A stretch of DNA of 64,000 nucleotides from Mesorhizobium erdmanii USDA 3471 (GTDB lineage Bacteria; Pseudomonadota; Alphaproteobacteria; Rhizobiales; Rhizobiaceae), in the NCBI RefSeq assembly GCF_000472705.1, contig NZ_AXAE01000014.1, forward strand, positions 1-64,000, given 5' to 3'. The notes beneath the pieces were generated by a model, which saw nothing but the letters and a program-made list of their open reading frames with translations, searched no databases and was not told where the DNA came from. The position numbers were made by a program, and so were the translations under genes. This document shows positions 27,591 through 55,637 of the stretch, one piece after another. Each line of letters opens with the position of its first letter. The first letter of the stretch is position 1.

Positions 27591-27862
27591 CAGCTTCTAC
27601 TGGTGAAGCCACCTAACAATCACTAACGTCTGGTTTTTTGGGCTGATAGTGTGGCCAATTAAACGGCGCGCGACGGCGGTTCTGTTGATCAGGCTTTGGC
27701 AATCCAGATTAAGAGCTTTCAACGGCCCGCCTTCGGTCGGGCGATCAATTGGATCTCCTGACCGTAAGGTGACAGGAGGGTCTCAATACCACCAGTTGCC
27801 ACGATGCCGTCTTTGCTGCCATCAGGGTGCGGCAGTTGCTCGATTTCGCAAGGGAGGACATT

Positions 27863-31826: not shown

Positions 31827-31834
31827 CTCTTTCC

Positions 31835-33082: not shown

Positions 33083-33400
33083 GACAAGGGCCCCCATTGT
33101 CACTGTAAACAATCCGCGAAGAGTTGGATCATACAAATATTTTTTATTTAGCGCAAGTGAATATGAGTCTGACTGAAATACTCGGACGCCAACTCGAAGC
33201 AGAGCATCGGCGGGCGGCTTGAGGCCCGGGTGATGCCACACGGTGCCGCTTTTGGGTGGACGCGACCCCGGCTGACATACCGCGTCTTGGCCGGATGCGA
33301 CGGAGTGCCCCGTCGGCGACTCCAACCTTTTACGGGAGATGTCGGATCTCATACATCAGGGCCGTTGATCGAAACGTACGTATGGGAGACCCCCTCGCCC

Positions 33401-34048
33401 ATGAAGTACGTCGGCTACTACCGCGTTTCGACCAAAAAACAGGCGCGTTCCGGGCTGGGATTAGAGGCTCAGCAACAGATGGTCCGGCAATTTGCACAGG
33501 CCAACGGGTCGCTGGTCGCAGAATTCGTTGAGGTGGAATCAGGCAGGAACGATCAACGATCGGAACTGGCAAAAGCGATGAACGGCGCGAAGAAGGCGGG
33601 AGCTTCGCTTCTAATCGCCCGGCTGGATCGCTTCTCGCGCCGTGTCAGCTTCATTGCGAGCATGATGGAGAAGGGCGTTCAGCTTGTAGTCGTGGAAATG
33701 CCTCACGCCACCGATTTTCAGCTGCATATCTTCGCCGCGTTGGCACAGGAGGAGCGGCGGCTGATTTCCGAGAGAACCAAGGCAGCGTTGGCCCAAGCCA
33801 AGCGTAGAGGAACCGAGCTCGGAAAGAATGGCAGCGTCTTAGCCGCCACAAACAAAGCCAGGGCGGTGAATTTTGCCGGCAAAGTTCGCGAATCGCTACC
33901 CAAACGCTGGGAAACGATGTCCTATTCTGAGCTTGCGCGTAGTCTCAACGAGGCTGGCCTGGTCACCGGTAATGGCAATCGCTTTTATCCACAGACAGCC
34001 AAGAACTTGGTTACCGTGCTCTCCCAAACTCGTGACGATCCGGCCTGA
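33401..34048 (+). CDS. small serine recombinase (resolvase/invertase-like)
   Basis: 215 residues. The N-terminal resolvase domain has the catalytic Ser10 in YYRVSTKKQ, with LIARLDRFSRR and AALAQEERRLISERTKAAL. The C-terminal 65 residues (YSELARSLNEAGLVTGNGNRF) look like a helix-turn-helix recognition region. It is one-third the size of the island's integrase and may be a resolvase or invertase, or a remnant of a nested element. ATG 33401 is the first recognisable start. It is divergent from the exported trio. Confidence 0.85.
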   Translation: MKYVGYYRVSTKKQARSGLGLEAQQQMVRQFAQANGSLVAEFVEVESGRNDQRSELAKAMNGAKKAGASLLIARLDRFSRRVSFIASMMEKGVQLVVVEMPHATDFQLHIFAALAQEERRLISERTKAALAQAKRRGTELGKNGSVLAATNKARAVNFAGKVRESLPKRWETMSYSELARSLNEAGLVTGNGNRFYPQTAKNLVTVLSQTRDDPA

Positions 34049-34225: not shown

Positions 34226-36763
34226 ATGTTTGAGTTGTTTCTTTTGGTCATGGCGATTGCGATTGGGCATTCAGTCTTGACCAATTTGGGACTGATCAAG
34301 GACAGCGCTAAAACCCCTCCTGCGACCAACGAGCCGACAGTTCCCCAGCGTCTCAGCAGGGACGACTATCATCAGCGCATTCGCGACTGGCGTGCAAAAT
34401 GGGAGCCGCTCATCGATCGCACGAAGTGGATACCATCAGGAACGGCCGAGGCAATTATTGAGAAATTTCCAGCCCCGGTGAAATCAACCTTTTCGCTGGA
34501 CAGATTGTCGAACGGAGATCCGGCACTCGAGGAGTTGAAATCGGATTTCAATAAGCACAACGACGTGTTTCGGGCCATGCAGAAGAAACTGCTGAAACGC
34601 CTATTCGATTCCGTTGAAAATAATCCGCTGACCGAAGAGCAGATCAACGCTTGCATCTGCATGGACCGCAACGTGGAGATCGTGGCGGCTGCCGGGTCAG
34701 GGAAGACATCGACAATGGTCGCAAAAGCGGGCTACGCCCTGCATCAGAAAATGGTCAAGGGAAATCAGATACTCCTTCTCGCGTTCAATAGAGATGCAGC
34801 GCAAGAACTGCGAGATAGGGTCAAAGCCCGCCTCACTGACTTCGACGGCGCCGACCAAATCAAAGTAGAGACCTTCAGCGCCTTTGGCCTGCATGTGATC
34901 GCAACAGCGAGCGGTGAGAAGCCCTCGCTGGCTCCCTGGCTCGAACAGTCGGGTCAAGATGTCGAGATGATGGGCGCGATCATCAAAGACTTGTCCGACC
35001 GAGACCCAAAGTTTCAAATGGACTGGAACATTTTCCGTCTCGTTTATGGTCGAGATATCGGTCAGCGGGGTGCCCCATCGGAGCCTGACGCCTATGAGAA
35101 TGGGCGGCGCGGCCACCGAACCGCCAATGGCGACGTCGTAAAAAGCAAGGAAGAGCGGCTGATAGCCGATTGGCTATTTTACCACCATGTCCCCTACGAG
35201 TACGAACGCGTTTACGAGCACAAAACGGCAACCGAGACGCACCGACAATATCAACCGGACTTCTATTACCCCGACATCCAACTTTACCACGAGCATTTCG
35301 CTCTCGGGGCGGACGGGAGAGCTCCGGATCACTTCGACGGCGATTATGTCGAAGGCGCGAAATGGAAGCGGTCAATGCATGCGGAAATGGACACCGCGCT
35401 CTTCGAGACCACCTCGCACGAGATTTCGACGGGAGCTGCGCTATCAAATCTGGAAGCCGAGCTACGGAAGCGGGAACAAACAATTCGCTTCGATCCGGAC
35501 CGCGAAGCGGTGGGTCTCCAGCCGATCAGCAACAAGGAGCTGGCAAATACGGTTCGGATTTTTCAGCAGCACGTGAAGAGCAACGGTCTTACGCCGTCAC
35601 AAATGAAAGAGGCGGTCACCAGTCAGTTAAAGGACGGCCATGCTGCGCGCATCCTGCTGTTCATAAAGCTGTACTATCAGATATCGGCAGAGTGGGAGCG
35701 GAGGCTGACGGAGGGGGACTGGATCGATTTCGAGGATATGCTCATTCAGGCCGGGCAGTATATTGAGTCTGGAGCATATCAGAGCCCCTTCACAATGGTT
35801 CTCGCTGACGAGTTCCAGGATTCTTCCCGCGCCCGAATCCGTCTTTTGAAGGCATTGTCCGCCGAAAAGGATGGCCAGGTTCACCTCTGCGTCGTTGGCG
35901 ATGACTGGCAGGGCATCAACAGGTTCGCTGGTGCGGACATTTCTGTGATGACCGAATTCGAGAAAATCTTCCCCTATGCATCACAGCTGACATTAGGAAC
36001 GACATTTCGATGTCCACAATCGCTCTGCGACATCTCCAGCCAGTTTATCCAGGCGAACCCTATCCAGATCAGAAAGACAGTCAAAACCACGAGCACCTAT
36101 TCGAATGCGTCCGTCCTGGCATTCGGGTTCAAAGACATGACCAGGGCTCAGGGGCATTTGAGGGAACAGTTCGATCTCATGCGCCGCTACATCGAGGACG
36201 AGAGGCTCAAGCCCAGCAGCGGGAATCGTATCACAATCCTGCTTCTTGGACGCTATCGAAGCGACGTCCCGAGCCAGCTGAAGTCGTGGCAACGCAGGTT
36301 CGGCGATGTGCTCGATATTTCATTCAAGACGATCCATTCATCTAAGGGATTGGAGGCTGACTACGTGATGCTGCTGAACGTGGTCGAAGGCTTCCGCGGC
36401 TTTCCAAGCCAGATTGAAGACGACCCGATACTGCAGATTCCGATGCCTGCGCCGGACCCGTATCCCATGGCTGAAGAACGACGTCTATTCTATGTGGGAT
36501 TGACCCGCGCAAAACGACAGGTTCGAATTTATACGAGTTTGGCCACCCCGTCGCGTTTCGTCACCGAACTCGTCACGAAGAGTCGCTTGAAGATCGAAGC
36601 CGTCGACGGCGAGTTGCAGGAGCCGTGTCCGAAATGCGGGATCGGGATCCTCAAACTTCGCACCGGAAAGTATGGCGAATTCGAGAGCTGCAGCACTTGG
36701 CCACGTTGCGACTTCAAACGGAATGTCGCCAATACTGACAAGGCCACTTCAGCACGTCACTGA
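34226..36763 (+). CDS. UvrD/Rep-type helicase with inserted nuclease-like segment and topoisomerase zinc ribbon
   Basis: 845 residues. An N-terminal hydrophobic helix (LFLLVMAIAIGHSVL); Walker A AAAGSGKT at about 154-161; a PD-(D/E)XK-like insertion at about 307-358 (SKEERLIADWLFYHHVPYEY, QPDFYYPD, YHEHF); Walker B ADEFQDS near 526; motifs VGDDWQGINRF, TTFRCP and TIHSSKGLEAD; LFYVGLTRAK; and a final topoisomerase-I-type zinc ribbon (CPKCG ... CSTWPRCDF). It resembles helicase-IV-like SF1 enzymes with nuclease insertions, and could process DNA ends or attack foreign DNA. Confidence 0.88.
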   Translation: MFELFLLVMAIAIGHSVLTNLGLIKDSAKTPPATNEPTVPQRLSRDDYHQRIRDWRAKWEPLIDRTKWIPSGTAEAIIEKFPAPVKSTFSLDRLSNGDPALEELKSDFNKHNDVFRAMQKKLLKRLFDSVENNPLTEEQINACICMDRNVEIVAAAGSGKTSTMVAKAGYALHQKMVKGNQILLLAFNRDAAQELRDRVKARLTDFDGADQIKVETFSAFGLHVIATASGEKPSLAPWLEQSGQDVEMMGAIIKDLSDRDPKFQMDWNIFRLVYGRDIGQRGAPSEPDAYENGRRGHRTANGDVVKSKEERLIADWLFYHHVPYEYERVYEHKTATETHRQYQPDFYYPDIQLYHEHFALGADGRAPDHFDGDYVEGAKWKRSMHAEMDTALFETTSHEISTGAALSNLEAELRKREQTIRFDPDREAVGLQPISNKELANTVRIFQQHVKSNGLTPSQMKEAVTSQLKDGHAARILLFIKLYYQISAEWERRLTEGDWIDFEDMLIQAGQYIESGAYQSPFTMVLADEFQDSSRARIRLLKALSAEKDGQVHLCVVGDDWQGINRFAGADISVMTEFEKIFPYASQLTLGTTFRCPQSLCDISSQFIQANPIQIRKTVKTTSTYSNASVLAFGFKDMTRAQGHLREQFDLMRRYIEDERLKPSSGNRITILLLGRYRSDVPSQLKSWQRRFGDVLDISFKTIHSSKGLEADYVMLLNVVEGFRGFPSQIEDDPILQIPMPAPDPYPMAEERRLFYVGLTRAKRQVRIYTSLATPSRFVTELVTKSRLKIEAVDGELQEPCPKCGIGILKLRTGKYGEFESCSTWPRCDFKRNVANTDKATSARH

Positions 36764-38415: not shown

Positions 38416-39408
38416 TTACCTCGCACAAATCCACTCCAACATTCCCGCGCCTCGTTTTCCGACGAACACGTTGGGAATCCTGTTCAGCGCTTCACCAATC
38501 TGGTCCATTGTGGCTTCCGGGACGCGGCAATTTGCTGGACCAGAACGCTCAGCCAAAACCCACCCCATTGGACCACACCTACAAAATGCGAGGAGCGTCG
38601 GATGATTGCCATCCCATCGATAGAAGTATCTCTGACCTGATTGGATTGATGCGATAGCGTACGCGAGTTCTTCTCCGCCCCTCAGGCAGTTGTCAAATTC
38701 GTTCCCTGCTTTTCGAAGCTGTTCGGCTGTCGTGATCGGGACGAGATCACCAACTTGGTCAAACGGCGGGTTAGGGAACGGCATGAGGCCGAATAGGTTT
38801 GCCAGAATTGCCGCCTGCTGATGCCCCTGAGCTATGGCTCGAAATAGGTGCTGATCATCGTGCATCGGTGCCAACCGTGCAATCACCCACAGCAGTTCAA
38901 CCAGCGCCGGGGCGGGTATCTTGCACTTCAGCAGTGCGCGGCAAACTCGGTTCGACACTGGCATCATTGAGGCTGAGGCCAGTGAGACGATGTCGTCGTC
39001 GCGGAGTTCCGTCGCCTGATAGATGTGATTTGCCAACTGTCCAGCGGCCGCGAGCGCTCGATGAAGTGCCACATAAACGTGTGTCGGCCTGGCATATGGT
39101 CCCAATTTGCCGAGTGCTGAGATCATGCCGGCAGGGCAGGAGTCGAACGCATCAGTGAGAATCTGACGGGACTTAGCGAAGGCCAAAAACCGGTACGTTT
39201 CGGCTGCATCGCGGATAGCCGTACCGCGCTTAGCAAGCCATGCATGCCAGATGTGCCGCCGGCTATCCGATGCGAGCAGGTACTCGCAGATGCGATCATT
39301 CGGCCATATCGACAGGACTTGAGCGCTGTCTTGCCGCGCAAGCACGGCAATAATTGACTTCTCCGACCCATTTCGGCCGAGCGGCGGGCTATTTCGATTG
39401 TGATGCAT
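38416..39408 (-). CDS. PcfJ-like-domain protein, hypothetical
   Basis: 330 residues, soluble, all-helical N-terminal two thirds. The C-terminal third (LRKAGNEFDNCLRGGEELAY, SGQRYFYRWDGNHPTLL, GWVLAERSGPANCRVPE) resembles the PcfJ-like pattern of a conserved NC after a helix, then short strands. PcfJ-like proteins occur in plasmids and islands; the role is unclear. ATG 39408 is divergent from the AIPR gene. Confidence 0.6.
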   Translation of the reverse strand: MHHNRNSPPLGRNGSEKSIIAVLARQDSAQVLSIWPNDRICEYLLASDSRRHIWHAWLAKRGTAIRDAAETYRFLAFAKSRQILTDAFDSCPAGMISALGKLGPYARPTHVYVALHRALAAAGQLANHIYQATELRDDDIVSLASASMMPVSNRVCRALLKCKIPAPALVELLWVIARLAPMHDDQHLFRAIAQGHQQAAILANLFGLMPFPNPPFDQVGDLVPITTAEQLRKAGNEFDNCLRGGEELAYAIASIQSGQRYFYRWDGNHPTLLAFCRCGPMGWVLAERSGPANCRVPEATMDQIGEALNRIPNVFVGKRGAGMLEWICAR

Positions 39409-39603
39409 GGTGGCTATCTCCTGATAGCCCGCCTTCCTCTCGACAGCTCACATAGGCAACCGTTCTGGCGATTGGGGAGATACTTCTTTGAAACAGACCT
39501 CATCCGCTTCCAATTTGAAAAGGTGGTGAAAAAGTCTGGAGATCGGCTGTCTACGGCTACCATAACGCGTAAATCTAGAGCGATTCGTATGAGGTACAAA
39601 GAA

Positions 39604-41268
39604 ATGCCCGCCGTTTCACCTGTAGAATGGGACATCGTGGAAGCACGCGTCCAAACGGCAACCGTCAAATACGGTTTGGAGAAACCATCCCTTGGCTTTT
39701 TGTACGTTGCGCTAGAGCAGCATTTTCCTGACCGGGCAATCGACTATCCCGAGATGATCGTCGATGGTGGAAATGACCTCGGCGTGGACGCCATCGAAAT
39801 CCTAGAGCGCGAAGACAGAGCTGAAGTCCTTATTTTTCAGTCGAAACATCGAACGTCTCTGAAATCGACCGATCGAACGATAAATGACGGCGAAGTTCTG
39901 AAAATTGGGTCGTTTCTGCACGCGCTCTTCGAAAAGGAAGCGCGCCTCCTAACAACCGGCAACCTTCAGCTCACCGAGGCTGTAGGACGCATTTGGGAGC
40001 TTCACAAGCGCGGTGTGATTTGCCGCTATCGCGTCATCTTCTGCAGCAATGGAAAAGGCCTTTCGAGGTCGGCTCAACAGATTTTGGACAGCACGCTGCA
40101 GCCTCTGGGTAACGTCGACTACGAGGTCTATGGACCGTCGGAAATTATGCGCGACATTGGTTCTGCTGAACGAGAACGGGAGATCGGAAATCTTCAGGTC
40201 GTAGGCAAGGAAGCATTCGAAAGAAGTGATGGGGACATACGTGGCGTTATCGCCTCAGTAGATGCCCGCTCGTTCGTAGAACTTATCCAAACGGCAGACG
40301 GAAAATCTATTAAGCGGCACCTCTTCGACGAGAATCTCCGAATCTTCTTGGGCGCAAATGGCGGATACAACAGCAATATCATCCAAACTGCGGTTTCGGA
40401 AGACAGCCACCTATTTTGGTACCTCAACAATGGTATCACGATAACCTGCAAGGACTACGCTTATAACAAAGGCCATTCCAATCCGATTATCAGGATCGAC
40501 GACTTTCAAATTGTCAACGGAGCCCAAACATCGCACTCGCTGTTAGAAGCATACCGTCGCTCGCCGGAGGCGTTCGACAACGTGGTACTGATGGTCAGGA
40601 TTTACGCCACTAGTCGAAACGACATTGCCGAAAAGGTGGCCGTAGCGACCAATAGCCAGGCTCGCATCCAAGCGCGAGATTTACGTGCAAATCATCCTGT
40701 TATGAAAAAACTCGAAATCGCCTTTCAGGATCAGGGTTATTTCTTCGAGCGAAAGAGGAATATGCACGCGGATCGCGAACCCCGCAAAAGGATCGACGCA
40801 TTGAAGCTGGGTCAAATCCTGCTTTCATATCAAATGGGGGAACCAGATCGCGCGAAGGCTGACTCGGACACGATCTTCGGGGATCGCTTCCATTTGATCT
40901 TCCATGAGCATTATAGCGTTGATGAGCTGTGCCGGCTTGTGGAGCTATATAGATTGATCGAAGAGATGCGCGACAACCACGTTGCTCAGCAGCGGGACGC
41001 GATAGAGCCGACAGGCGAGCGGCAGTATCTCGTTTATGGCCATTGGTTCGTGCTCTATGCCGCCCGATTGATCGTCTCAAGCAAGGGCAAACAGATACCC
41101 CACGGCAACGACGCCAGCACTCTAGTCTTGGAGGCCTTAGCCCTGGTCGCGAGGGCGTGTGCAAGGGTGAAGAGCACCGCGCAGTATCAGCTTTTCCGAA
41201 GTTCCAAGACGAAAGATCGCATTATCGCCGAACTCGAAGGAAGGCAGATGAGCCTTTTTGACCTGTAG
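39604..41268 (+). CDS. AIPR family abortive-infection protein with Mrr-like N-domain
   Basis: 554 residues from ATG 39604, chosen because GAGG lies nine bases upstream; ATG 39589 is possible. The N-terminal 200 residues look restriction-endonuclease-like (GGNDLGVDAIEI at about 54 and EVLIFQSKHR at about 75: Asp ... Gln-x-Lys). The AIPR domain follows with FWYLNNGITITC (about 270) and QIVNGAQTSHSL (about 302). AIPR proteins are linked to abortive infection against phage; the mechanism is not settled. The gene stands alone with its own upstream region. Confidence 0.85.
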   Translation: MPAVSPVEWDIVEARVQTATVKYGLEKPSLGFLYVALEQHFPDRAIDYPEMIVDGGNDLGVDAIEILEREDRAEVLIFQSKHRTSLKSTDRTINDGEVLKIGSFLHALFEKEARLLTTGNLQLTEAVGRIWELHKRGVICRYRVIFCSNGKGLSRSAQQILDSTLQPLGNVDYEVYGPSEIMRDIGSAEREREIGNLQVVGKEAFERSDGDIRGVIASVDARSFVELIQTADGKSIKRHLFDENLRIFLGANGGYNSNIIQTAVSEDSHLFWYLNNGITITCKDYAYNKGHSNPIIRIDDFQIVNGAQTSHSLLEAYRRSPEAFDNVVLMVRIYATSRNDIAEKVAVATNSQARIQARDLRANHPVMKKLEIAFQDQGYFFERKRNMHADREPRKRIDALKLGQILLSYQMGEPDRAKADSDTIFGDRFHLIFHEHYSVDELCRLVELYRLIEEMRDNHVAQQRDAIEPTGERQYLVYGHWFVLYAARLIVSSKGKQIPHGNDASTLVLEALALVARACARVKSTAQYQLFRSSKTKDRIIAELEGRQMSLFDL

Positions 41269-45083: not shown

Positions 45084-45980
45084 CTAGGCGGCTCGACGGT
45101 TCTCAGTCAATTCATCCTCGCCAGTGATGTTTTCTGCATCAGTATGCGCGGCTTCAGGATCGACGGGACACCAGCCGTAGTCAGCCAAGTCCATGTCCAG
45201 AACGTGGCTCTTTCCATACAACGTCAACAACTCAGACGGCTTCGACACATCCCCGAACAGTTCGGCGACCTCGGTAAAGTCGATTGCAAAATTGTGGCTT
45301 GGATAGCCCGTGACCAGGCGATGAACCGTTTCCTCGGAAGCGTTGCCGGAAGCACGGACCAGCCGGTTGCCGTATTCAATCGCAGTCTCGATTGCGAGGT
45401 GTCGGTTGCCAAAGATGGTCGGGTCGAGCTTTGCCACCAAAGGCGACAGCAAGCTTGCAGCGAGATCAGCGCCAACCTGGCTTCCAAGCTTAAAACTAAC
45501 GGTCCCCTCGCTCTCCACGGCAAGGTTGCACACGGTCTTTTCGATAACATTGAACGCGGCTTCACCGAGTGCACGCACAGCCGCTTGAGGTGCCAAAGCG
45601 GACTCGTTGATACAGACCTCGTCGTGCTTACGAAATTGAGGGTCGATTGGACCCATCACGGCGTTGGAATCGATGATCAGGTTGTGTGCTCCGAGCGCCA
45701 CGAAGGTTCCCGCACTCCAGCAATGGTGGGGGATGTAAACAGTCAGCTCCCCATAATGGCGATGGAAATGCCGAGCGATCCGATATGCGGTCGCCCCATC
45801 ACCGCCTTCAGTGCTCAAAACAAGAATGGCACGGGAATGGGTGGGCGACGCAGAAGCCACCTCCAACTGGCGAAGGCAATCTCCGATGATCGGGCCACGC
45901 AAACTATAGATATCCGCCTCTTCTTCCTCGCTGAGCCGACGAGCGAGGTTGGAGAGGATGCTGTTATTCAGTTCTTCCAT
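45084..45980 (-). CDS. SDH-type Clp-fold serine proteinase
   Basis: 298 residues from ATG 45980, chosen because GGAGG lies six bases upstream; ATG 45992 is in frame. The ClpP-like fold shows STEGGDGATAYRIAR (oxyanion loop), CWSAGTFVALGA with candidate nucleophile Ser89, and SNAVMGPIDPQF. This matches the serine dehydrogenase-proteinase group of cytoplasmic Clp-fold proteins. It is the second Clp-fold protein within 4 kb. Substrate unknown. Confidence 0.8.
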   Translation of the reverse strand: MEELNNSILSNLARRLSEEEEADIYSLRGPIIGDCLRQLEVASASPTHSRAILVLSTEGGDGATAYRIARHFHRHYGELTVYIPHHCWSAGTFVALGAHNLIIDSNAVMGPIDPQFRKHDEVCINESALAPQAAVRALGEAAFNVIEKTVCNLAVESEGTVSFKLGSQVGADLAASLLSPLVAKLDPTIFGNRHLAIETAIEYGNRLVRASGNASEETVHRLVTGYPSHNFAIDFTEVAELFGDVSKPSELLTLYGKSHVLDMDLADYGWCPVDPEAAHTDAENITGEDELTENRRAA

Positions 45981-46683
45981 ACGTACCTCCATAATATCGA
46001 CAGATGCCGATCATCTGCACACACTGGAGATAGGATCAATATTCGAATGTTCAAGCAGGGTAGAGGTCTTTTTACGCCAGTAGTTTTGACCTATTTGTCC
46101 GTCTTTGTTGCAACCACGACACAGTTTAGCCAGAAACTGTAAATCAGTCAATTACCGAAAGAACAATACCATCTAACTTTTACGGAAAAAGTCGAAGCAT
46201 ACATGGAATGTACACCTCGCGAAACACGTAAAAGATGGATATGGGTGTGGGAGGAGGAACAACTACGGAAAAGGTTGGTCCACTCGAAGGGATGTAATTA
46301 TCAATATTGTCGGAACATCCATGATTCAACGGGATGTGTTAGATTTATCAAAACCTTTCCCTTTTTCGGAAAAAGAACGTCGACCCTATGAGGAAAACCA
46401 TAAGACGTGTTGCAAATCAGGACGGTCCTGCAAGGAAGAAAAAACCGTAAGAGATGTATATGGGCGTGGGAAAAGGGACAATTACGGGCGGTAATTGCAT
46501 CTCGAAGGGATGTCCGTGTTATTATGTTTATGCATTTAAAGAGAATCCAATTCCGTTATATTGCACCTTTTTAAGATCATTTTTCTAAACCCCTTTTCAC
46601 ATCGCCAGGTGAAGGCCGAGCTAAATTTAGAAGGCCTTCCGCTGAGGTTGTAAGGTTTGATGAGACGATGATGGCCAAGAAAT
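45981..46683. other. AT-rich gene-free interval beside the polymerase
   Basis: About 700 bases of clearly lower GC without a supported gene, between the protease start and the 3' end of the polymerase gene. It holds a degenerate duplicated segment (46178-46520) and a weak hairpin (GAAGGCC ... GGCCTTC near 46611-46640). Candidate replication or regulatory region, or remnants of a small duplicated gene. Confidence 0.5.
46178..46520 (+). repeat. two degenerate direct repeats, about 69 bp core
   Basis: Cores at about 46227-46295 and 46445-46512 share CGTAA-AGATG, ATATGGG-GTGGGA, ACAA-TACGG and an exact TCGAAGGGATGT. A related CGGAAAAAG-GTCGA word precedes each. The second copy lies in a 43-codon frame containing SKGCPCYYVYAF and the first encodes SKGCNYQYC in a frame shifted relative to its start, so they may be decayed copies of one short Cys-rich gene. 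Confidence 0.55.
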
Positions 46684-49446
46684 TTAGTTCGGGCTTCGCC
46701 TGGCCAGGAACATATCAACGTCCAATTCATAAAAATATTTTTCCTTCAAGGTGATCAGCGCCGTGATCGACCTTTCGGTCTGGATCCAGGTGTGTGGCTC
46801 GAAAGTATTGCGTTTGGCATTGTCCAGATCTGACACCTGACAGGGAATTCCCACGTCATTCAGAATGTCACAGAACTCATCGTGCTTGATCTTCCCCATA
46901 CGCTTAAGCACAAGGTCGAACCCGGCCTGATAGTGCTTGAACGCGCGCGTCAGATCCCGTTTGGCGCGCTTAAGGTCACCGTCGGTTTTGCCGGCATATC
47001 GCATGACCGATTCACTGGTCTTGCGTTTGGTCTCTAGATAGTGCTGGAAAGCTCTCAAGTCCGTTCCGGACTTGAGAGTCCTGAAAGGATTGGTCGCCCA
47101 TTTGCTCCAAGCTTCGCGGACCCGCTGAAATTCGTCGAAGTCCTCGAGCGGCTCCGAAGAAAACGACAAATGGGTGTAGGTTTGGCCGTGGAATTCGACC
47201 GTCCTGTCTTGGAGGTCGATCGGCCGTCGTTTCCAGTCAAACTCCATCGACACCCGTTTGGTTACCGTTCTCATCACGAAATCAGCGCCAAATCGGATCA
47301 TGTCCTTAAGGCCGACGCCTGAATCATATGTCAGCTGCTGGCCAGCCGTTCGATTGAAAAAAAGTTCGACAATCTGCGCGTTTTCTTCATCCGGTTTAAG
47401 GTCTCGCTGGTCCAGCTTGATACCGCCTTTCTGAAGGACGATGTTTTTATCGACCTTGTCAGCCAGTCCCAGCTGCAACGTTGCTGATCCCCTTGTCCTC
47501 CAGCCGAGAGGCTGGCGAATCGTGTGCTTGACCTCTATGGGCGGGTCATTGCTACCCAGTTGAAGCTTAGCCTGCCTAAATGAATCGAAAATTGGTCCTG
47601 CCGTGGCGAGGACCAGGTCCGAGTCAATGGCGTTGGAAAGGAACCCGTCTGTAGTCACGCTAAAAACTTGGGCGGTATCCGGAAATTTGTTGAGCACTTC
47701 ACCCAACACCGCCCGCGTGTATGACGTGATAAACGCCGCAAAAAACGGTTGCGTCAGCTCACTTTCCGGCAATTCGACCATGTCATCGGCGCGAAGATCG
47801 TAAACTCGCTTCTTCCGAAGCCCCTGTGCCGTCTTACCGTAGGTGCTGTTGCCGACCTCCTTCCAGAAAAGGTTGCCGAACGTGCCCTTGTCGAACTCAT
47901 TCCTGCGGGTAATGCAATCGTTGATGAAATCGGAGAAAATCCTGACGCCCTGTTCGACCGGCGCCCGGACCGACCGCCTCAATTTTAGCTCTGCTCCGAG
48001 CTGCCTTGCCAGCACCAGTTCGGGAGCTGCGCAACACGCCCGTCCTTTTCGAGGGAAGATGATCCCGTTTGCCGTTCGAACCGGTAGCGTTGGAAAACGA
48101 ACGGACCGTGGAAATTCGAAATCGACCGATGCGAAAGCGAGGTCGAGCAACTCGATTTCATCGATTGCAACGTCACGCTCAATCCGCTCCCAGTCCGGTT
48201 TGCACAGCAGCGTCATGGCCGTTGGGTAGGCGGAACTCAGGTCATGATCTCGCCAAATACCCTCGTCGCAGATTCCGTACAGAAACTGCTCATTGCGACC
48301 GCCGTGATACGCTTCCGACACAAAGTCCAACTCGTAGTGGACAAGATCCTGATGTGGATGAATGGTCTTGGATACGGGCCGCCCCAGCCGTTTGTTGAAT
48401 TGCTGCACCTTCTTCTCTTCGCGGCCCAACACGTCGTCCGGCTTCCATCCGCTCTGTTCCCATTGTGCGATTGCCAATTTTGAACCGAAGGACGTCAGCG
48501 TAAGTGGCATGGCGAACTTGCCGAATAGCTCGTCATACTGGCGGATCAGCTGCTCGGCATATTGCGTGCAGATTTCGGCATCGCGGATCGCGTATTCACG
48601 AAATTTCGGCCAGTTTTCCGACCGAAACTGCTTCATATGCCCCTTGATTTCCCTCTCTTCGGCAAGAGTGTCTGCCAGTTCGATCTTGTTGAACCCGAGC
48701 ATTTTGCCGACATCAGCAAGCTGTTTTGCATTCGCGGGAGCAAGAAGGATCGTGTCCCTCAACCTGATGCTGAACTCGGCAACCTCTTGGCCTCGTCCGT
48801 CCACAATCCGCATCGGGATAGCGCGGTCGATCGAGACGAACGTGCTTCGCACGTTGCTCATCGTAGCCTTTGCTTCGTCGGCAAACTCGTCGAACATCGG
48901 CAGGTCGGCGCGGGTGAAGTGCCCGACCAGGTAGATATCCGTCGGCACCTTCCGAGCGGGATGATCACTGATGAACTTGCCGATCGCGATCGCGATGAAA
49001 TCACGCAGGAGCAATCGGCGCTGGTCCTTAGGGACGATGATCCCGCTCGACTGAACCGGCGTTTCGTTGCGGTGACCCTGGGAGATCAGCCTAGTACAGA
49101 ACTGGTATGAGAGGATTTCGTTCTCTGCACCCTGTGCCTCGGCCTTGGTTGGACCGATGGCATCACGTGACTGATATTCCGTGTCGAACCCGATAATCAG
49201 GTGCGCGGTCGTAAGCGCCTTCTTCTGACCACCTTTGCGCTTGGGGGGAAATTCGATGTTTTCCGGTCGAATAACGACCGTAGTCGGCGCGAGGCTGTGA
49301 TCAGTCGTGTCAAAATACGACTGACCGTTTGCCGTCGCCGACCTGAACTTCTGCTGATTGCTTGCGGAACGCTGTGACCGCCCGTGGGCGTCAGGCGAGA
49401 AGTCGTGCTCGACCTCGCCCGGCGCGACCGAGATCAGATTGTCCAT
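46684..49446 (-). CDS. family B DNA polymerase, piPolB-like
   Basis: 920 residues. Proofreading motifs: Exo I GFDTEY (Asp88, Glu90), Exo II GHFTRADL (Asp181), Exo III YAIRD (Tyr285, Asp289). Polymerase motifs: A DLSSAYPTAM (402), B NSTYGKTAQG (533), C VTTDGF (597). After motif C, GWRTRG (RTRG at 650-653) stands where protein-primed enzymes have KxY and piPolBs have KTRG. Primer-independent PolBs start DNA synthesis de novo and define pipolins. No terminal protein gene lies nearby, which fits piPolB better than a protein-primed enzyme. Start: ATG 49446 after GGAGAC. The activity is inferred. Confidence 0.82.
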   Translation of the reverse strand: MDNLISVAPGEVEHDFSPDAHGRSQRSASNQQKFRSATANGQSYFDTTDHSLAPTTVVIRPENIEFPPKRKGGQKKALTTAHLIIGFDTEYQSRDAIGPTKAEAQGAENEILSYQFCTRLISQGHRNETPVQSSGIIVPKDQRRLLLRDFIAIAIGKFISDHPARKVPTDIYLVGHFTRADLPMFDEFADEAKATMSNVRSTFVSIDRAIPMRIVDGRGQEVAEFSIRLRDTILLAPANAKQLADVGKMLGFNKIELADTLAEEREIKGHMKQFRSENWPKFREYAIRDAEICTQYAEQLIRQYDELFGKFAMPLTLTSFGSKLAIAQWEQSGWKPDDVLGREEKKVQQFNKRLGRPVSKTIHPHQDLVHYELDFVSEAYHGGRNEQFLYGICDEGIWRDHDLSSAYPTAMTLLCKPDWERIERDVAIDEIELLDLAFASVDFEFPRSVRFPTLPVRTANGIIFPRKGRACCAAPELVLARQLGAELKLRRSVRAPVEQGVRIFSDFINDCITRRNEFDKGTFGNLFWKEVGNSTYGKTAQGLRKKRVYDLRADDMVELPESELTQPFFAAFITSYTRAVLGEVLNKFPDTAQVFSVTTDGFLSNAIDSDLVLATAGPIFDSFRQAKLQLGSNDPPIEVKHTIRQPLGWRTRGSATLQLGLADKVDKNIVLQKGGIKLDQRDLKPDEENAQIVELFFNRTAGQQLTYDSGVGLKDMIRFGADFVMRTVTKRVSMEFDWKRRPIDLQDRTVEFHGQTYTHLSFSSEPLEDFDEFQRVREAWSKWATNPFRTLKSGTDLRAFQHYLETKRKTSESVMRYAGKTDGDLKRAKRDLTRAFKHYQAGFDLVLKRMGKIKHDEFCDILNDVGIPCQVSDLDNAKRNTFEPHTWIQTERSITALITLKEKYFYELDVDMFLARRSPN

Positions 49447-50112
49447 GATGTCTCCAATTCGATCGACATAAGGAGCCGCTGAATAGACAGCGCCTTATGA
49501 TTTCGATCGAATTGCGAGTCATGAAACGGTGCGGCTTGGGGCCGCGTTGGCTAAGGGAAAGGTTTCGCCTGGCGTGGCTGCTTTCAAGCTTCTCTGCCTG
49601 AACTTGGAGTTCCAGCTGATTTCCTTGTCTGCATGCTGCCATGTGCCAATATCCCCACCGCTGAAACGTCGCCAGAATTTCCGTCGCTGTGTCGTTCAGG
49701 TGGGAATCCTGAGTTCGCGTTGCAAGTCCTTGTTGTGCGAAAATCAACAATCGCAAAGCGACAGCCATTGGTATGGGCTTAGGAGAAGCTTGGTAACTCC
49801 AGTCTCCTCGGTCCGGTCCGGTCCGAATGGACAACCTCCTGAAGGCTCACAGGTAGAGGAGCAGCCCCGACGGTGATGATGACGATGACGATTGACCACT
49901 GCACAGGTTCAGGCGGCTCGTATGTGTGCTGATTGTTCGTCGGGAAGGACCACCAAGCCACACACGCTGGGTTTGCGGGCATCTCCAGAAAGCCAGGAAA
50001 TCCAGCCAGGGTGGCGGCGAGGCCATTCGAATGTACGATGTTGCCCGAACACCCAACTCCTAAATGCGTTTTCAGGTCAGAAACACCCAGGCAACCCTGC
50101 CTAAATCCCGTT
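49447..50112. other. gene-free interval between polymerase and HUH genes
   Basis: No supported gene; frames here lack ribosome-binding sites and family features. It contains the nested stem-loop at 50070-50139. Because it separates the two replication-type genes it is a natural place for an origin or nick site. Confidence 0.45.
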
Positions 50113-50139
50113 TCAATTCAGCGTTTTCTTGACCTGAAA
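50070..50139 (-). terminator. nested stem-loop at the 3' end of the HUH-type gene
   Basis: TTTCAGGTCA (50070-50079) pairs with TGACCTGAAA (50130-50139); inside is AGGCA-ACCC-TGCCT (50089-50102). The right arm overlaps the last codons of the HUH-type gene. It may end transcription or be a nick site; there is no U-tract for a standard intrinsic terminator. Confidence 0.45.
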
Positions 50140-50868
50140 TGGCAGCACCCTGAAATCGTCAGCGACCTTCAGCTCGTGATTATTGTGCACCATGAATTTG
50201 GCCATGTACGATGATGCACGGCTGTCACCCGTCGAATTTCGATGGTCATGATCGAGCTGCTGGACATCTAATTCTCGAATCGAAAACCGTGCTTTGATGG
50301 ATATGAGCCGTTCTTTGTCGGCTAATAAATTTTGAAATCCATCTCTAGTTTGTTCGGCGAAAATCCAAATCGAATGTATATGAGGGTTTTCCAGTGCTCC
50401 CATCCATCTCCAATATCTCGATCCGTTCATGTCCAGACAACCGATCGCAAGAGGTTTCAGAGCATGGAATGACGGTCGATGGTAGTTCCGTCCGATCAAT
50501 TGCCGGCATAGGTAGTTATATATGCCGGTGAACCTATCCATCTCCGTTTTGGCACCTGGGCCGTCGATCAGGTCGGAACTTTCTAGCCGCTGTTTGCGAC
50601 TGCTGTGATCGAATGAGATCGTGATGAAGAACCCATTCCGTTTCTTGAATGTTGAGACGGAATCGAACCTGCCTTTGTGCTCATTGATGAACTGATCGAT
50701 CCTGCCGTCAAACCACGATGCGTATTGGGATGTGATTGACGTCGGAGAGGTATTTGAGACGGTCTGGAACATGTGGTTGGCTTCTTTCAAAGGGATATAG
50801 ACCCATCGAAAATCGATGGGAGAAATGGTTTTGGGTGGTTGAAATCGTGCGAGGATCGCCGTCGGCAC
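50113..50868 (-). CDS. HUH-type endonuclease-like protein (rolling-circle Rep candidate)
   Basis: 251 residues. Three features in order match single-Tyr HUH Rep proteins: a beta strand FFITISFDHSS (about 80-90), HIH at 163-165 in NPHIHSIWIF (metal site), and Tyr221-x-x-Lys224 in SSYMAKF (nicking Tyr). Such enzymes nick one strand and stay bound to the 5' end. The GTG at 50868 gives the full frame but lacks a ribosome-binding site; ATG 50772 is an alternative that keeps all motifs. It sits between the polymerase and the integrase, all on one strand. The family could also be a transposase or relaxase, but size and YxxK favour Rep. Confidence 0.65.
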   Translation of the reverse strand: MPTAILARFQPPKTISPIDFRWVYIPLKEANHMFQTVSNTSPTSITSQYASWFDGRIDQFINEHKGRFDSVSTFKKRNGFFITISFDHSSRKQRLESSDLIDGPGAKTEMDRFTGIYNYLCRQLIGRNYHRPSFHALKPLAIGCLDMNGSRYWRWMGALENPHIHSIWIFAEQTRDGFQNLLADKERLISIKARFSIRELDVQQLDHDHRNSTGDSRASSYMAKFMVHNNHELKVADDFRVLPFQVKKTLN

Positions 50869-51002: not shown

Positions 51003-52811
51003 CTACTGAGCCGAGGCGGGCTCGTCGAAAACGTCGTCCAACCCGTCAGACCAACCAATTGGCATCCCGCGATCGCTGCCGGAGATTGCGCCGTCTTTGC
51101 CGACAAGAACCTCTGCGATGAAGTCGGTTGGATCGTCTGATTTAACGACAACATGGCGTGAAATTCCATCGGCAAGCACAACCGAAAATGTGCGCTGAAA
51201 CCGCTGGGCATGTTCGTTAGACCATTGAATTTGATCTAGCAGGCGCCGCCGCTCCTCTGGATCGACGCCAGTAGACGAAAGAAAATGCTCAATCCGCTTC
51301 GCCTTAGGCTGACTGCCATCCGAAGCGACCCTCAGAGAGCGGATCATCGATCGCAGGCGATTAGCCACTACTGCGCGACGGTCGAAAATGTCCGACGCTG
51401 TCATGTCCTGGATCGCGTCGATCAGCGATTTCAGTTCGAGAGCTGTGATCGACGGCATCGGTTGACTGGCAAGAAGTTGCCCTTGGAGCTGTTCAATCTG
51501 TTGCTGCTCTTTCGAGATTTCACTCTCGCATTCCTCAAGCTTGCCTTTGATGAACGTGGTCGAGGAGCCTGGATCGTCCAACATTTCGAAAATTCGCTCA
51601 CGCTTCACTTGAAGCTGGTGAACCTTCTCTTCTAGCGCTGCCATTCTCTGCTGGAGCATCGCTTGGCCGGAGTCTTGCGCGGCTGCCTGCAAGATGGCGG
51701 TAAGGTCGACTTCCTTCACGAAATACAGGAACGAGGTTTCGAAATCCGAGTACTTCCAGCTGACGCTCTCGCACCCCAGATTTCGCACCGCATTCGTGCA
51801 CTTGAGCGCCTGCGTGCCCTTCGGCGGACGGCCCTTGTGAACGAACCTCATTGGTGCCCCGCAGTAGTCGCATTTCGCGATCTTAGAAAACAGATTGCGG
51901 TATTCCGGCCCTTTGCGACCAGCGCCCTCGACCAACCTTCGCCGGCGAGCAGCTTGAACGCGTAGAAACTGGTCCTCGTCGACGATTCGAGGGAAGTAAC
52001 TTCTGATCGGATCGCCGGATGCGATTCTTTCCCCAAGCTCATCGTATCTGTGAGGCTGAAATTCACCGAGAACGGCACGGTTATTGAGAATTTTGGTCAC
52101 ATAGGATTCGTGCCAACCGTCCGATTTCGTGAACGTCGGTACGTCAGATTGATTAAGCCTGCGTGTGATCACGAACGACCCATGGCCGGCATCCGCAAAG
52201 TCGAAAATTTGTTGCACGACATCAGCGCGTTCCTTGATGATATCGAACACAGAGCGATCTTCTCGCAGGGTGAGCCATGCTGGCGCGACCTTCGTTAGCT
52301 TCTTCTCGCTAGCTTTGTTCCGCTTGTTTCTCCAAGCCTCTCCTACCCGCATGCTCTTAGTTTTTGATTCCTCGTAGGCTCGACCGAGGATCATCACAGA
52401 GTACATGATATCGGCGAAATTCGTTTCCCCAGCCCGATAGAGGTGCGCATCGGCGAGGGTCACGACGTTGATCCCGCTCTTGATTATATCGAAAAAAACC
52501 GGAATCGAGTCGAGAACCTGCTGACGGCTGATCCTGTCCAGTGACTCCACAAGCAGGTATGAACCGCGAGCGATCTCACCACCCTTCACGAGGGCGAGGA
52601 ATTTTCCCAAGGCGCCGGATGAAACGTTGGCTCCCTTGAACGCCGAAACTCCGATATCCTCAAGCTTGAAGTCTTCGACGAGCTCGAGACCGTTTTGGTC
52701 GGCGTAGGCTTTTGACGACTGTTGCTGTCTCCGAAGACTGTCGCCCTTAAGCTGAATGTCGGTCGACATTCGAATGTACGAATAGGCGAGTGGGTTGGGT
52801 GCAGAGTTCAT
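51003..52811 (-). CDS. large serine recombinase (integrase)
   Basis: 602 residues from ATG 52811 (GGGCGGG upstream). Resolvase domain with catalytic Ser16 in YSYIRMSTD and LVESLDRISRQQVLD; Recombinase domain (VQQIFDFADAGHGSFVITRR, ILNNRAVLGEFQPH); zinc ribbon (CDYCGAPMRF ... CTNAVRNLGC); then a coiled coil (MAALEEKVHQLQVKRERIFE). This is the layout of phiC31-type integrases. It lies about 80 bp from attR, as usual, and should catalyse insertion into comM, with excision needing a directionality factor I could not identify. Confidence 0.92.
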   Translation of the reverse strand: MNSAPNPLAYSYIRMSTDIQLKGDSLRRQQQSSKAYADQNGLELVEDFKLEDIGVSAFKGANVSSGALGKFLALVKGGEIARGSYLLVESLDRISRQQVLDSIPVFFDIIKSGINVVTLADAHLYRAGETNFADIMYSVMILGRAYEESKTKSMRVGEAWRNKRNKASEKKLTKVAPAWLTLREDRSVFDIIKERADVVQQIFDFADAGHGSFVITRRLNQSDVPTFTKSDGWHESYVTKILNNRAVLGEFQPHRYDELGERIASGDPIRSYFPRIVDEDQFLRVQAARRRRLVEGAGRKGPEYRNLFSKIAKCDYCGAPMRFVHKGRPPKGTQALKCTNAVRNLGCESVSWKYSDFETSFLYFVKEVDLTAILQAAAQDSGQAMLQQRMAALEEKVHQLQVKRERIFEMLDDPGSSTTFIKGKLEECESEISKEQQQIEQLQGQLLASQPMPSITALELKSLIDAIQDMTASDIFDRRAVVANRLRSMIRSLRVASDGSQPKAKRIEHFLSSTGVDPEERRRLLDQIQWSNEHAQRFQRTFSVVLADGISRHVVVKSDDPTDFIAEVLVGKDGAISGSDRGMPIGWSDGLDDVFDEPASAQ

Positions 52812-52874
52812 CCCGCCCAATGTAGGCGGTCCCAAGATCCGGCTCAACGCCTTTGGAACGAGGCGTACGACATA

Positions 52875-52897
52875 AAATTAATCCGCTTCAGCATCTG
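52875..52897. other. attR: right island-chromosome junction
   Basis: AAATTAATCCGC at 52875-52886, nine bases, then core ATCTG at 52893-52897, beyond which the comM 5' end begins. It mirrors attL. Confidence 0.85.
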
Positions 52898-52990
52898 AAT
52901 GCCGACCTTGCCGGGCGCGATCATCACCTGCACGTCGACCGGCACGGCCTCGATGCCCTGGAAAGCCACCGTGCGAACCCGCGCCACCAT
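52893..52990 (-). pseudogene. comM: comM (YifB), 5' portion, cut off by island
   Basis: Starts ATG 52990 after GGGGGCGGC and encodes MVARVRTVAFQGIEAVPVDV, then QVMIAPGKVGIQ, the ComM N-terminus. Past the core the frame runs 17 codons into the island and stops at 52844, 33 bases before the integrase start on the same strand. Upstream in-frame codons to 53080 are not part of the family. The 324 bases from 52991 to 53314 hold no other supported gene and should contain the comM promoter. Confidence 0.92.
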
Positions 52991-53314: not shown

Positions 53315-54511
53315 CTAGCTGGTGACGAAGGCATCGACCGCACCGGAAAGGGATCGATCGATTGCGATCTGCGGTGGAAGCCACTCCATGACAGGGTATC
53401 GGAAAGGCCAAGGCATGGCGATCCGGTGCAAGGAGCCGCTTTCCAGAAAAATCTCATTTACAAGGTCTATGAACCGCTCGCGGTCTCGTTCAACTCGTTT
53501 CAAAGTTTGCGAACGAATATACGCCCGGGGAATTCGCCGCTCTTTCAGCGCCAAGACAGCCTCCGCGACGGATCGAGGATCGGGTGGAACTGTAAGCGAA
53601 TACTCGTCATCCAGATAAAGGTCTCGGCCGCCAAGGTTCGGCGTGGTGACCACAGGAAGCCCCGCGAGAAGATATTCCGTGCTGGCGAACATTGGTCCCT
53701 CCACTTCAGAGAGACAAATTCCCACGGCTGCACGATTTAGATGTGTGTTCACGTGAACTGATGACAATCGGACAGGCTTGCCGGTGCCGTCAAACTCGTT
53801 GATAAAGACGTGATGCGGCGCGAGTTCCCTGTGCCGATCTATTCGTGCTCTCTCCGACTCCTTCGTAGAGGACTCGTTTGAATCTCGATAGAATACAAAT
53901 GCACAACGCGGTATGCCAAGAGACAAGTCATGGCGCTTCCACGGAGCCAGTTGCGCATTGTAGATTGCATCAAATTCTACAGGGACATCATCGAGAGGCC
54001 TGAATATGTATTCGGAGGTTGTTGAAGTCTTGTTGTGCTGGACGGCGGCCTCGCCGGACTGATTCAACAGACCAGCCTCGGCTTGTGTATTGGAGAGGAA
54101 TATTAGCGAGTGACGGGGATTCCTAAGCCTATGCAGAACGGCATAGGTCCGGATGGCTTTGACGCTAGAACTGTTTTCGATGGACCAGGTCGGCGAGATG
54201 AGAAACCAGGCGCGGTGGCTGCGTGGAAGAAGAGGCATATGACTTGCTAATCCGAGGGGCGTACCGGACATTCCGGAATAGGATATGAACGGATCGTCCG
54301 ACAGCAAACTTGCCTGAAGAGCAGGTTGCGATTTCGCAGGAAGGTGCCCTTTTCTGAGGTTGCGGCCATGACGCAGCATGGCTCTGACAATCTCGGATCT
54401 GGTAGGAGGGCGATACCCGTGCTTTAGAGTCAACATGCGGCAATTGCGATCATAAATACGGAAGAAAACTCGCTGCGGCAGAGAGAAATTTGGCAAAGAA
54501 AGCATCGCCAT
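53315..54511 (-). CDS. GT-B glycosyltransferase (family 1/4-like)
   Basis: 398 residues. The C-terminal half has the nucleotide-sugar binding pattern of GT-B enzymes: ICLSEVEGPMFASTEYLLAG with the E-x7-E-like Glu pair, LPVVTTPNLGGRD, DPRSVAEAVLAL. The N-terminus is divergent from known subfamilies. It probably adds a sugar to a surface polysaccharide or lipid. It is divergent from the GT2 gene at 54564, sharing a 50-base promoter region. Confidence 0.78.
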   Translation of the reverse strand: MAMLSLPNFSLPQRVFFRIYDRNCRMLTLKHGYRPPTRSEIVRAMLRHGRNLRKGHLPAKSQPALQASLLSDDPFISYSGMSGTPLGLASHMPLLPRSHRAWFLISPTWSIENSSSVKAIRTYAVLHRLRNPRHSLIFLSNTQAEAGLLNQSGEAAVQHNKTSTTSEYIFRPLDDVPVEFDAIYNAQLAPWKRHDLSLGIPRCAFVFYRDSNESSTKESERARIDRHRELAPHHVFINEFDGTGKPVRLSSVHVNTHLNRAAVGICLSEVEGPMFASTEYLLAGLPVVTTPNLGGRDLYLDDEYSLTVPPDPRSVAEAVLALKERRIPRAYIRSQTLKRVERDRERFIDLVNEIFLESGSLHRIAMPWPFRYPVMEWLPPQIAIDRSLSGAVDAFVTS

Positions 54512-54563
54512 CTGATCGACTGAATATCTCAGTGATCAAATTTGGTGTGCGAAGGAGCGCCTC

Positions 54564-55637
54564 GTGCAAGAAAGCATCCTCCCAAGCGGGGCTGGTTCTC
54601 ACATCGCACTACCAACCGTATCCGTTTGCGTAGGCTGTTTCAATCAAGAGGCATTCATCGACACTGCGATCCGATCCGTAGCGGCGCAGACGTACACTGC
54701 GTTCGAGTGCGTGGTGGTCGATGATCTTTCGACCGACGGTTCCCGCCGAAGGATTGAAGAGTGTCTGTCCCGGCTTGGCGACAGTCGTTTCCGCTTTCTG
54801 CCCCGACTGCAAAATGGCGGGCAGTTGGCAACAATAATGACCGGGCTTGACGCGACAGCCGGACCTCTGATCTCCTTTCTTGACGGTGACGATGCGTGGC
54901 ATCCTGACTTCATAGAATGCCATGCGAGAGCGCATCTCAGTCACACCCGTATCGCGGCGATGTCGACCTCCGATGAGGTGTTGATAGATGCTGCCGGCAA
55001 CCTGCTTGCTGGCGGTCATCCCGTATTCCGCCTGAATGACCCGCGATCAATACCGAAAATGAACGGCTACCTGCATGTCGATACGGAAGCCGACCCAACA
55101 TTATTATTTATCGATCGGGGTACTGTGGGTTGGTTTTGGTCAACCACATCGGGGATGATGTTTCGTCGAGCTCCGCTTGAAATCATGCGTCCATCTGATC
55201 CGGACCAAATAAGGATATGTGCCGATGATTATATGGCTCGTGCCGCCCATATGATCGGGGGAACCGTGAGGATTGAGCGGGCTCTTGGCAGTTATCGGCT
55301 TCACGGCGGCAATGGCTGGGCGGACGGACGCGTCCTGGGTGCCGGAATTGGCCTAGGCAGGATGTCGCCTGATACCGAAATGGCGATACGGCGGGCACTG
55401 GCCAATCGTTGGTGCGAGGTGGCGCCGGGACTGGAGCATTTGATTTCCCGCCACTCAATGCGCAGGACCTTGGTCGACCTGATCGGACAGTCTGCGGCTT
55501 TTGCATTGCTGGAAAAGAACTCCGATGCGGGTTTTCTGCTGAAAGACTGGGCAACACCACAGCGAAAATTGCAGACCAAACTTATCGGTCTCCTTCCTCC
55601 GAAGCTGAGGCCGCGGCGCTTCCGGGACAGAGTCTGA
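54564..55637 (+). CDS. GT2 family glycosyltransferase
   Basis: 357 residues. GT-A fold: VSVCVGCFNQEAFIDTAIRS, VVVDDLSTDGS, then FLDGDDAWHPDF carrying the metal-binding DxD-type motif. Acts on nucleotide-diphospho sugars, probably for surface polysaccharide. The GTG start at 54564 follows AAGGAG. It lies between the other glycosyltransferase and gshB, on the opposite strand to both. Confidence 0.85.
   Translation: MQESILPSGAGSHIALPTVSVCVGCFNQEAFIDTAIRSVAAQTYTAFECVVVDDLSTDGSRRRIEECLSRLGDSRFRFLPRLQNGGQLATIMTGLDATAGPLISFLDGDDAWHPDFIECHARAHLSHTRIAAMSTSDEVLIDAAGNLLAGGHPVFRLNDPRSIPKMNGYLHVDTEADPTLLFIDRGTVGWFWSTTSGMMFRRAPLEIMRPSDPDQIRICADDYMARAAHMIGGTVRIERALGSYRLHGGNGWADGRVLGAGIGLGRMSPDTEMAIRRALANRWCEVAPGLEHLISRHSMRRTLVDLIGQSAAFALLEKNSDAGFLLKDWATPQRKLQTKLIGLLPPKLRPRRFRDRV

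Follow-up and report, generated by a model that had tools for sequence, protein, structure and literature searches.

A candidate pipolin-like integrative element with a large serine recombinase in comM of Mesorhizobium erdmanii

Introduction

Primer-independent family B DNA polymerases (piPolBs) are reported to carry a KTRG motif that replaces the KxY of their protein-primed relatives. A motif C without its first Asp is described as another piPolB trait in PMC7544198, while the phi29/tectivirus-like protein-primed PolBs have DTDS at motif C, and a terminal-protein gene adjoins the polymerase gene in phi29 and PRDcerulean. According to the accounts in PMC7385651 and PMC9710591, the integrated pipolins, exemplified by those of E. 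coli, have piPolB inside an att-bounded element with variable cargo and a patchy distribution, in E. coli at a tRNA gene with att direct repeats. The former account describes integrated pipolins as encoding tyrosine recombinases; the latter describes plasmid pipolins as often being without an integrase, lists S. epidermidis and L. fermentum as hosts of plasmid pipolins, and notes that att-mediated excision and integration were still awaiting in vivo confirmation as of 2022. Mobile elements in comM are known from other bacteria, and the breaking of competence genes has been argued to protect such elements from transformation; as PMC4774983 presents them, these elements have in common an integrase resembling one from A. 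actinomycetemcomitans, and the portion of that source devoted to them does not mention piPolB. The literature searched contained no report linking pipolins with a serine recombinase (the words co-occur only in unrelated places), nothing on pipolins with comM, and no paper in which KTRG appears together with DNA polymerase.

The stretch of DNA analysed here (the window) comprises 64,000 nucleotides of Mesorhizobium erdmanii USDA 3471 (contig NZ_AXAE01000014.1, positions 1 to 64,000). Judging from its sequence, it probably holds a pipolin-type integrative element of 32 kb, inserted at about codon 31 of the host comM, which a serine recombinase would move and a piPolB would copy. The position of the polymerase gene inside an att-bounded integrated element, the variable cargo and the patchy distribution are shared with the integrated pipolins of PMC7385651 and PMC9710591, from which the element differs in its mobility module: its large serine recombinase stands in place of their tyrosine recombinase, and comM with a 5-bp core in place of the tRNA gene and direct repeats of the E. 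coli pipolins. With the comM-targeting elements, as PMC4774983 describes them, it shares the target gene and the likely effect on transformation. As far as the literature searched goes, the serine recombinase and comM are new parts of an otherwise known kind of element.

The integrated element and its recombinases

Two fragments of comM flank a 32,059-bp element that carries the polymerase gene (46684–49446, within 20834–52897). The 3' part of the host gene, from about codon 31 to the end, occupies 19402–20838 and the 5' part, codons 1–34, occupies 52889–52990, both on the minus strand. The left att core, CAGAT at 20834–20838, adjoins comM codon ~31, and the right core, CAGAT at 52893–52897, lies one element period (32,059 bp) away; these 5 bp are the only direct repeat at the element ends. 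The uninterrupted site reads GGCAT(G/C)CAGATCGTCGG in comM of 4 of 11 same-genus loci, namely those with the exact string searched. The G+C content is ~0.65 outside the element versus ~0.55 inside.

When attP was rebuilt by joining the ends, its arms, centred on the core dinucleotide CA, paired at 18 of 22 positions, and such a near-palindromic attP around a core dinucleotide is the expected form for a large serine recombinase. None of 2000 shuffles reached a pairing of 18 (the best gave 15), and the attL and attR of the window paired at best at 10 and 12 positions. The same computation for the related locus L011, with an element of 14,232 bp, gave 18 of 22 around TC, again with 0 of 2000 shuffles reaching this value. 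Immediately within the right end is a large serine recombinase of 614 aa (51003–52847, minus strand), with Resolvase, Recombinase and zinc-ribbon matches in Pfam, a PHROG integrase match (1.4e-70) and the motif YSYIRMST. The original prediction of a comM-integrated, serine-recombinase element is borne out by the split comM and by this recombinase at one end.

A small serine recombinase/resolvase of 272 aa is also encoded (33230–34048, plus strand; Pfam 2.3e-27). No tyrosine recombinase was found in the window with two tyrosine recombinase query sequences and an iterated profile; the iterated profile found tyrosine recombinases in 16 of the 34 loci scanned (weakly in L023, patchily in L028–L030), near piPolB in L002, L011, L012, L016 and L031 among others, and L011, L012 and L016 have both the serine and the tyrosine kind. 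The set of serine recombinase and comM is perhaps a variant gained by a swap of integration modules. There is no tRNA gene in the window; a tyrosine recombinase and a tRNA gene being customary in E. coli pipolins, their lack speaks against the pipolin reading. Rfam at gathering scores matched nothing over 20800–53000. In the regions beside the polymerase gene (45990–46690 and 49440–50120), no replication origin was recognised; according to a repeat finder, no family of direct repeats there exceeds two copies, and there is one 27-nt inverted repeat (81%).

Cargo and neighbouring genes

PADLOC matched four of the ten ORFs scanned. At the left end, an FRG-domain protein (20943–22442, minus strand; Pfam 9.4e-15, PADLOC 1.4e-22) is a candidate defence protein of the PDC-S15 type. 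A GIY-YIG protein resembling PD-T4-3 (27827–28693, plus strand; PADLOC 3.0e-66) and an AbiU-like AIPR protein (39400–41268, plus strand; Pfam 2.4e-40, PADLOC AbiU 6.3e-63) are both likely anti-phage cargo. The fourth is a UvrD/Rep-type helicase with a topoisomerase zinc ribbon (34226–36763, plus strand; Pfam), whose match to the PADLOC GajB-type helicase models is generic, and which may be either defence cargo or a replication helper. A ClpP/SDH-type serine protease-like protein is encoded at 45084–45992 (minus strand; Pfam 6.1e-16). Beside the small serine recombinase, three neighbouring minus-strand ORFs of 414–505 aa (29197–33352) have no Pfam match and look alike by eye.

Outside the element, two genes of lower G+C that are glycosyltransferase-like by eye (53315–55637) separate codon 1 of comM from a glutathione-synthase-like gene; comM and the glutathione-synthase-like gene are adjacent in L011, and 53315–55637 is possibly a second small insertion in the window. 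The left window edge (23–376) bears what appears by eye to be an IS110-like transposase fragment.

comM as a target in other genomes

Of the 17 genomes in which piPolB was matched, 11 have a nearly full-length comM, five have an interrupted or partial one and one yielded none, which with the window makes 6 of 18 with an interrupted gene. In each of these five a piPolB-type gene lies within or next to the broken comM and a serine recombinase at a junction; with the window included, a large serine recombinase adjoins a comM junction in all six. The breaks fall near codon 31 in the window, L011 and L012 (the L012 genome has an additional break at codon 77) and near codons 200–222 in L016, L021 and L027. 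The two comM junctions of L021 are 46 kb apart and those of L027 lie on different contigs; in the L016 genome, comM codons 1–35 are on another contig and codons 36–211 were not found, which leaves its insertion site unsure; these irregular junctions count against the pipolin reading. The serine recombinases of L011 and L016, which adjoin comM codons 30 and 212 respectively, are 87% identical.

comM is a general hotspot for insertion. In a control search, comM was matched in 189 of 199 genomes of the order, and, the window genome aside, two comM matches with a poor best score were seen in 20 of the remaining 198, a split-gene pattern read here from match number and score rather than from fragment coordinates; none of these 20 is among the polymerase matches of the order search. 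In two of 41 same-genus genomes (G423 and G426), comM is broken near codon ~77 (a converted position) by inserts without piPolB, and a search of eight genomes including these two gave no piPolB match. Since comM is such a hotspot, a live rival is that the window holds a comM-targeting serine-recombinase island in which piPolB is a passenger, a captured replication, repair or defence gene that does not replicate the element. The frequent hits on comM without piPolB in the genomes just described favour this rival, as does a distinct insertion of 7.7 kb in L027 (13215–20961), which has a serine recombinase and no piPolB and lies at comM codons 29–36, in a genome that also has a piPolB gene beside comM codon ~220. 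The occurrence of piPolB near a tyrosine recombinase in L002, L011, L012, L016 and L031, as if this were the older unit, points in the same direction, and so does the finding that, of 25 element ORFs compared besides the polymerase, 9 were matched by tblastn (1e-4) in at least one of 30 other loci, many of these loci offering short flanks only. However, piPolB and the serine recombinase occur together in all six comM-interrupted genomes, the polymerase frame is intact in five of these (it is broken in L027), and a Pfam scan of 21 element ORFs leaves just two further candidates for a replication role, the UvrD-type helicase and, on its motif, an HUH ORF. We regard a passenger polymerase as unlikely, and a pipolin-like element that its own polymerase copies as the better account of the locus.

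The polymerase and its relatives

The gene at 46684–49446 (minus strand) has an ATG start, encodes 920 aa and has zero internal stops. Its product matches Pfam DNA_pol_B_2 (6.6e-8, 32.3 bits against a cut-off of 25.8) and two PHROG DNA polymerase families (6.4e-15 and 1.1e-10); NCBIfam and a sequence search of solved structures gave no match. The motifs GFDTEY at 86, LVGHFTRAD at 173 and YAIRDAEI at 285 are followed by DLSSAYPT at 402, NSTYGKTAQG at 533, SVTTDGF at 596–602 and RTRG at 650–653, and the exonuclease acidic residues D88, E90, D181 and D289 are all there. A stand-alone 920-residue family B polymerase with intact exonuclease motifs and RTRG after a TTDG-type motif C, as first read from the translation, is thereby confirmed. 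The gene is single-copy, with one match (itself) in the 7.0-Mb genome.

Motif C is TDG without the first Asp in all 27 piPolB-type rows of the motif table, the SVTTDGF of the window included, whereas DTDS stands in 19 of 20 outgroup rows. The twentieth, L062, was labelled as outgroup beforehand and looks piPolB-like, with ATDG and KSRG; it joins the piPolB side of the tree (100/97) on a very long branch and was probably mislabelled. At the RTRG position, the 27 rows read RTRG in 15, KTRG in 3, TTRG, RTRL and KTRV in 2 each, and RTRV, KTRM and RARG in 1 each. Of the 14 alphaproteobacterial rows, 12 have RTRG; the other two are L046 (KTRM) and L078 (KTRG). The Lys-to-Arg change, which the original prediction had singled out, is ordinary, and RTRG as a special feature of the window polymerase is ruled out by these 15 rows.

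The tree (46 rows, 753 columns) has a branch with support 99/98 that sets 26 piPolB-type rows, including the window, apart from 20 outgroup rows; piPolB membership in it rests on plasmid relatives, the biochemically studied E. coli enzyme P0DPS1 standing outside the row set. This tree, of the kind that had been proposed as a check, places the polymerase away from the protein-primed rows. The window falls in a six-row set (96/98) with the order relative L002, Devosia, Brucella grignonensis, Paenochrobactrum and the viral-collection contig L031; several branches of the tree are long, and the order among distant rows is unsure. The viral outgroup rows are 16 of the 27 weaker loci from the viral-collection alignment search. 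L012, a near-copy of L011, is in the motif table and outside the tree; L006, L015, L023, L025, L027, L028 and L029 (split, partial, broken or near-copies) and the weak matches L047 and L079 are outside both.

A tblastn search of 72,556 plasmids gave 48 records matching the polymerase, every one below 60% identity, from Pseudosulfitobacter (30), Staphylococcus (10), Fusobacterium (3), Bacillus (3), Limosilactobacillus (1) and Helicobacter (1). S. epidermidis pSE-12228-03 and L. fermentum pLME300, which we take to be pipolin plasmids, are within the top nine rows of the 48. Their polymerases are homologous to that of the window, with 25.5% identity across 60% of the query for pSE-12228-03 and 22.8% across 63% for pLME300, and share its TDG motif C; the window RTRG aligns onto KTRG of pSE-12228-03, and pLME300 has RTRV at this position. 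Unlike the window element, both are circular plasmids with a relaxase, and pSE-12228-03 has a recombinase-family protein. On a Pseudosulfitobacter plasmid (L006, 11214–16071), IS66-type genes separate the two parts of a piPolB-like gene, and a MobC/relaxase pair is close by.

Polymerase matches were found in 2 of 397 genomes of the order (the window genome and G202), in 3 of 385 of the class (one weak, 1.6e-5 over 216 bp) and in 4 of 398 of the phylum (one weak, 9.9e-8), the window genome being counted in the latter two as well. Twenty loci came from scanning a collection of species genomes, described as covering 84,980 species, and a search of 50,697 phages gave three weak partial matches, to polymerases of the protein-primed type. 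In a viral contig collection, a single-protein scan found no relative and alignment searches found 1 and 30 loci, with L031 in both. L031 (IMGVR_UViG_3300048586_000622), which has a tyrosine recombinase, a piPolB and an HUH ORF, is possibly not a virus. Another contig filed as viral, of 34 kb (IMGVR_UViG_3300006674_000090), bears two closely similar piPolB-like genes with TTRG (L048 and L049). The prediction of a piPolB in Rhizobiales fits the relatives found.

Structure prediction for the polymerase (pLDDT 82.8) gave phi29 polymerase as the best match (Z 19.9; 512 residues aligned at 3.9 A within model residues 82–733, the remainder unaligned). This check, also proposed beforehand, places the protein in the group that comprises protein-primed polymerases and piPolBs, but the fold does not tell those two apart. 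A protein-primed PolB with an unrecognised terminal protein would agree with this fold and with an upstream ORF of 251 aa of about the size and place of a terminal protein. No terminal-protein gene was recognised among the window ORFs scanned with Pfam and PHROG, such proteins being poorly conserved and hard to spot by sequence. Against such a polymerase, the window protein has neither DTDS nor KxY, the hallmarks of protein priming, the tree sets it apart, the element ends resemble recombinase att sites of a circularising element, and the 251-aa ORF has HUH and YxxK motifs; protein priming is therefore very improbable. The motifs and the tree support a piPolB-type polymerase, and the product of 46684–49446 would on these grounds be a true piPolB; such a polymerase inside a bounded integrated element is what the pipolin-like designation had predicted.

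Just as improbable is a decayed, immobile remnant whose ends are intact and whose ability to leave or replicate is lost, for which a directionality factor that was not recognised, the missing tyrosine recombinase of the relatives and the lack of a second polymerase copy in the genome might speak, but against which stand the open frames of both polymerase and recombinase and the well-formed att sites.

A putative HUH endonuclease

The 251-aa ORF (50113–50868, minus strand), between the recombinase and the polymerase, encodes a putative HUH endonuclease with NPHIHSIW and YMAKF. It has no Pfam match, and its structural model (pLDDT 49.7) gave weak Foldseek matches, none at E<=0.001 and several of them ferredoxin-like. 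Homologues occur in L011, L012 and L031 (26% identity), and HIHS.W and Y..KF are invariant in all four aligned sequences. A search for the HUH and YxxK pattern in open frames of at least 130 codons, with polymerase frames excluded, hit the element, L011, L012, L021 (again as L104), L026, L031 and a plasmid recombination protein in L005, and gave no hits in reversed sequences (530,794 bases) or in the window host flanks (30,400 bases); the pattern was written after viewing the proteins of the window, L011, L012, L031 and L104/L021, so that only L026 is fresh among the piPolB neighbours. A putative HUH ORF is thus near piPolB in the window and five related loci, at a distance from the polymerase gene of ~0.1 kb (L021) to 7.6 kb (L012). 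The ORFs of L021 and L026 are alike (8e-6) and weakly resemble REP_ORF2-G2P (0.018 and 6.7e-6, both under the Pfam cut-off); a PHROG search with them gave nothing clear, and profile comparison did not link the window ORF to them. The literature searched contained no paper on pipolins with HUH beyond the one that shares the words pipolin and serine recombinase.

Tentatively, and less likely than not, an HUH nickase may open the excised circle and give the first 3' end, which piPolB would extend with strand displacement, starting the complementary strand without a primase. If the pairing of HUH and piPolB is true, it would be a mode of replication without host primase, on serine-recombinase elements that switch off transformation at comM.

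Proposed mechanism and implications

In the pipolin-like element proposed here, the serine recombinase would join attP and attB at the CA dinucleotide core to integrate the element and, with a directionality factor, would release it as an excised circle. We infer that the element is replicated by its polymerase, which would copy the excised DNA by self-starting strands, without a terminal protein or primase, while displacing the other strand. Integration would inactivate comM and may shield the element from removal by transformation. A comM-aimed serine recombinase may have taken over from the tyrosine recombinase of the published integrated pipolins, and some related loci have both.

The ends, the att sites, the recombinase and a few candidate genes are located with single-base precision in a host other than an enteric bacterium, which makes excision, integration and polymerase dependence directly testable. 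The repeated capture of comM by piPolB elements ties this kind of polymerase to a possible block of host transformation.
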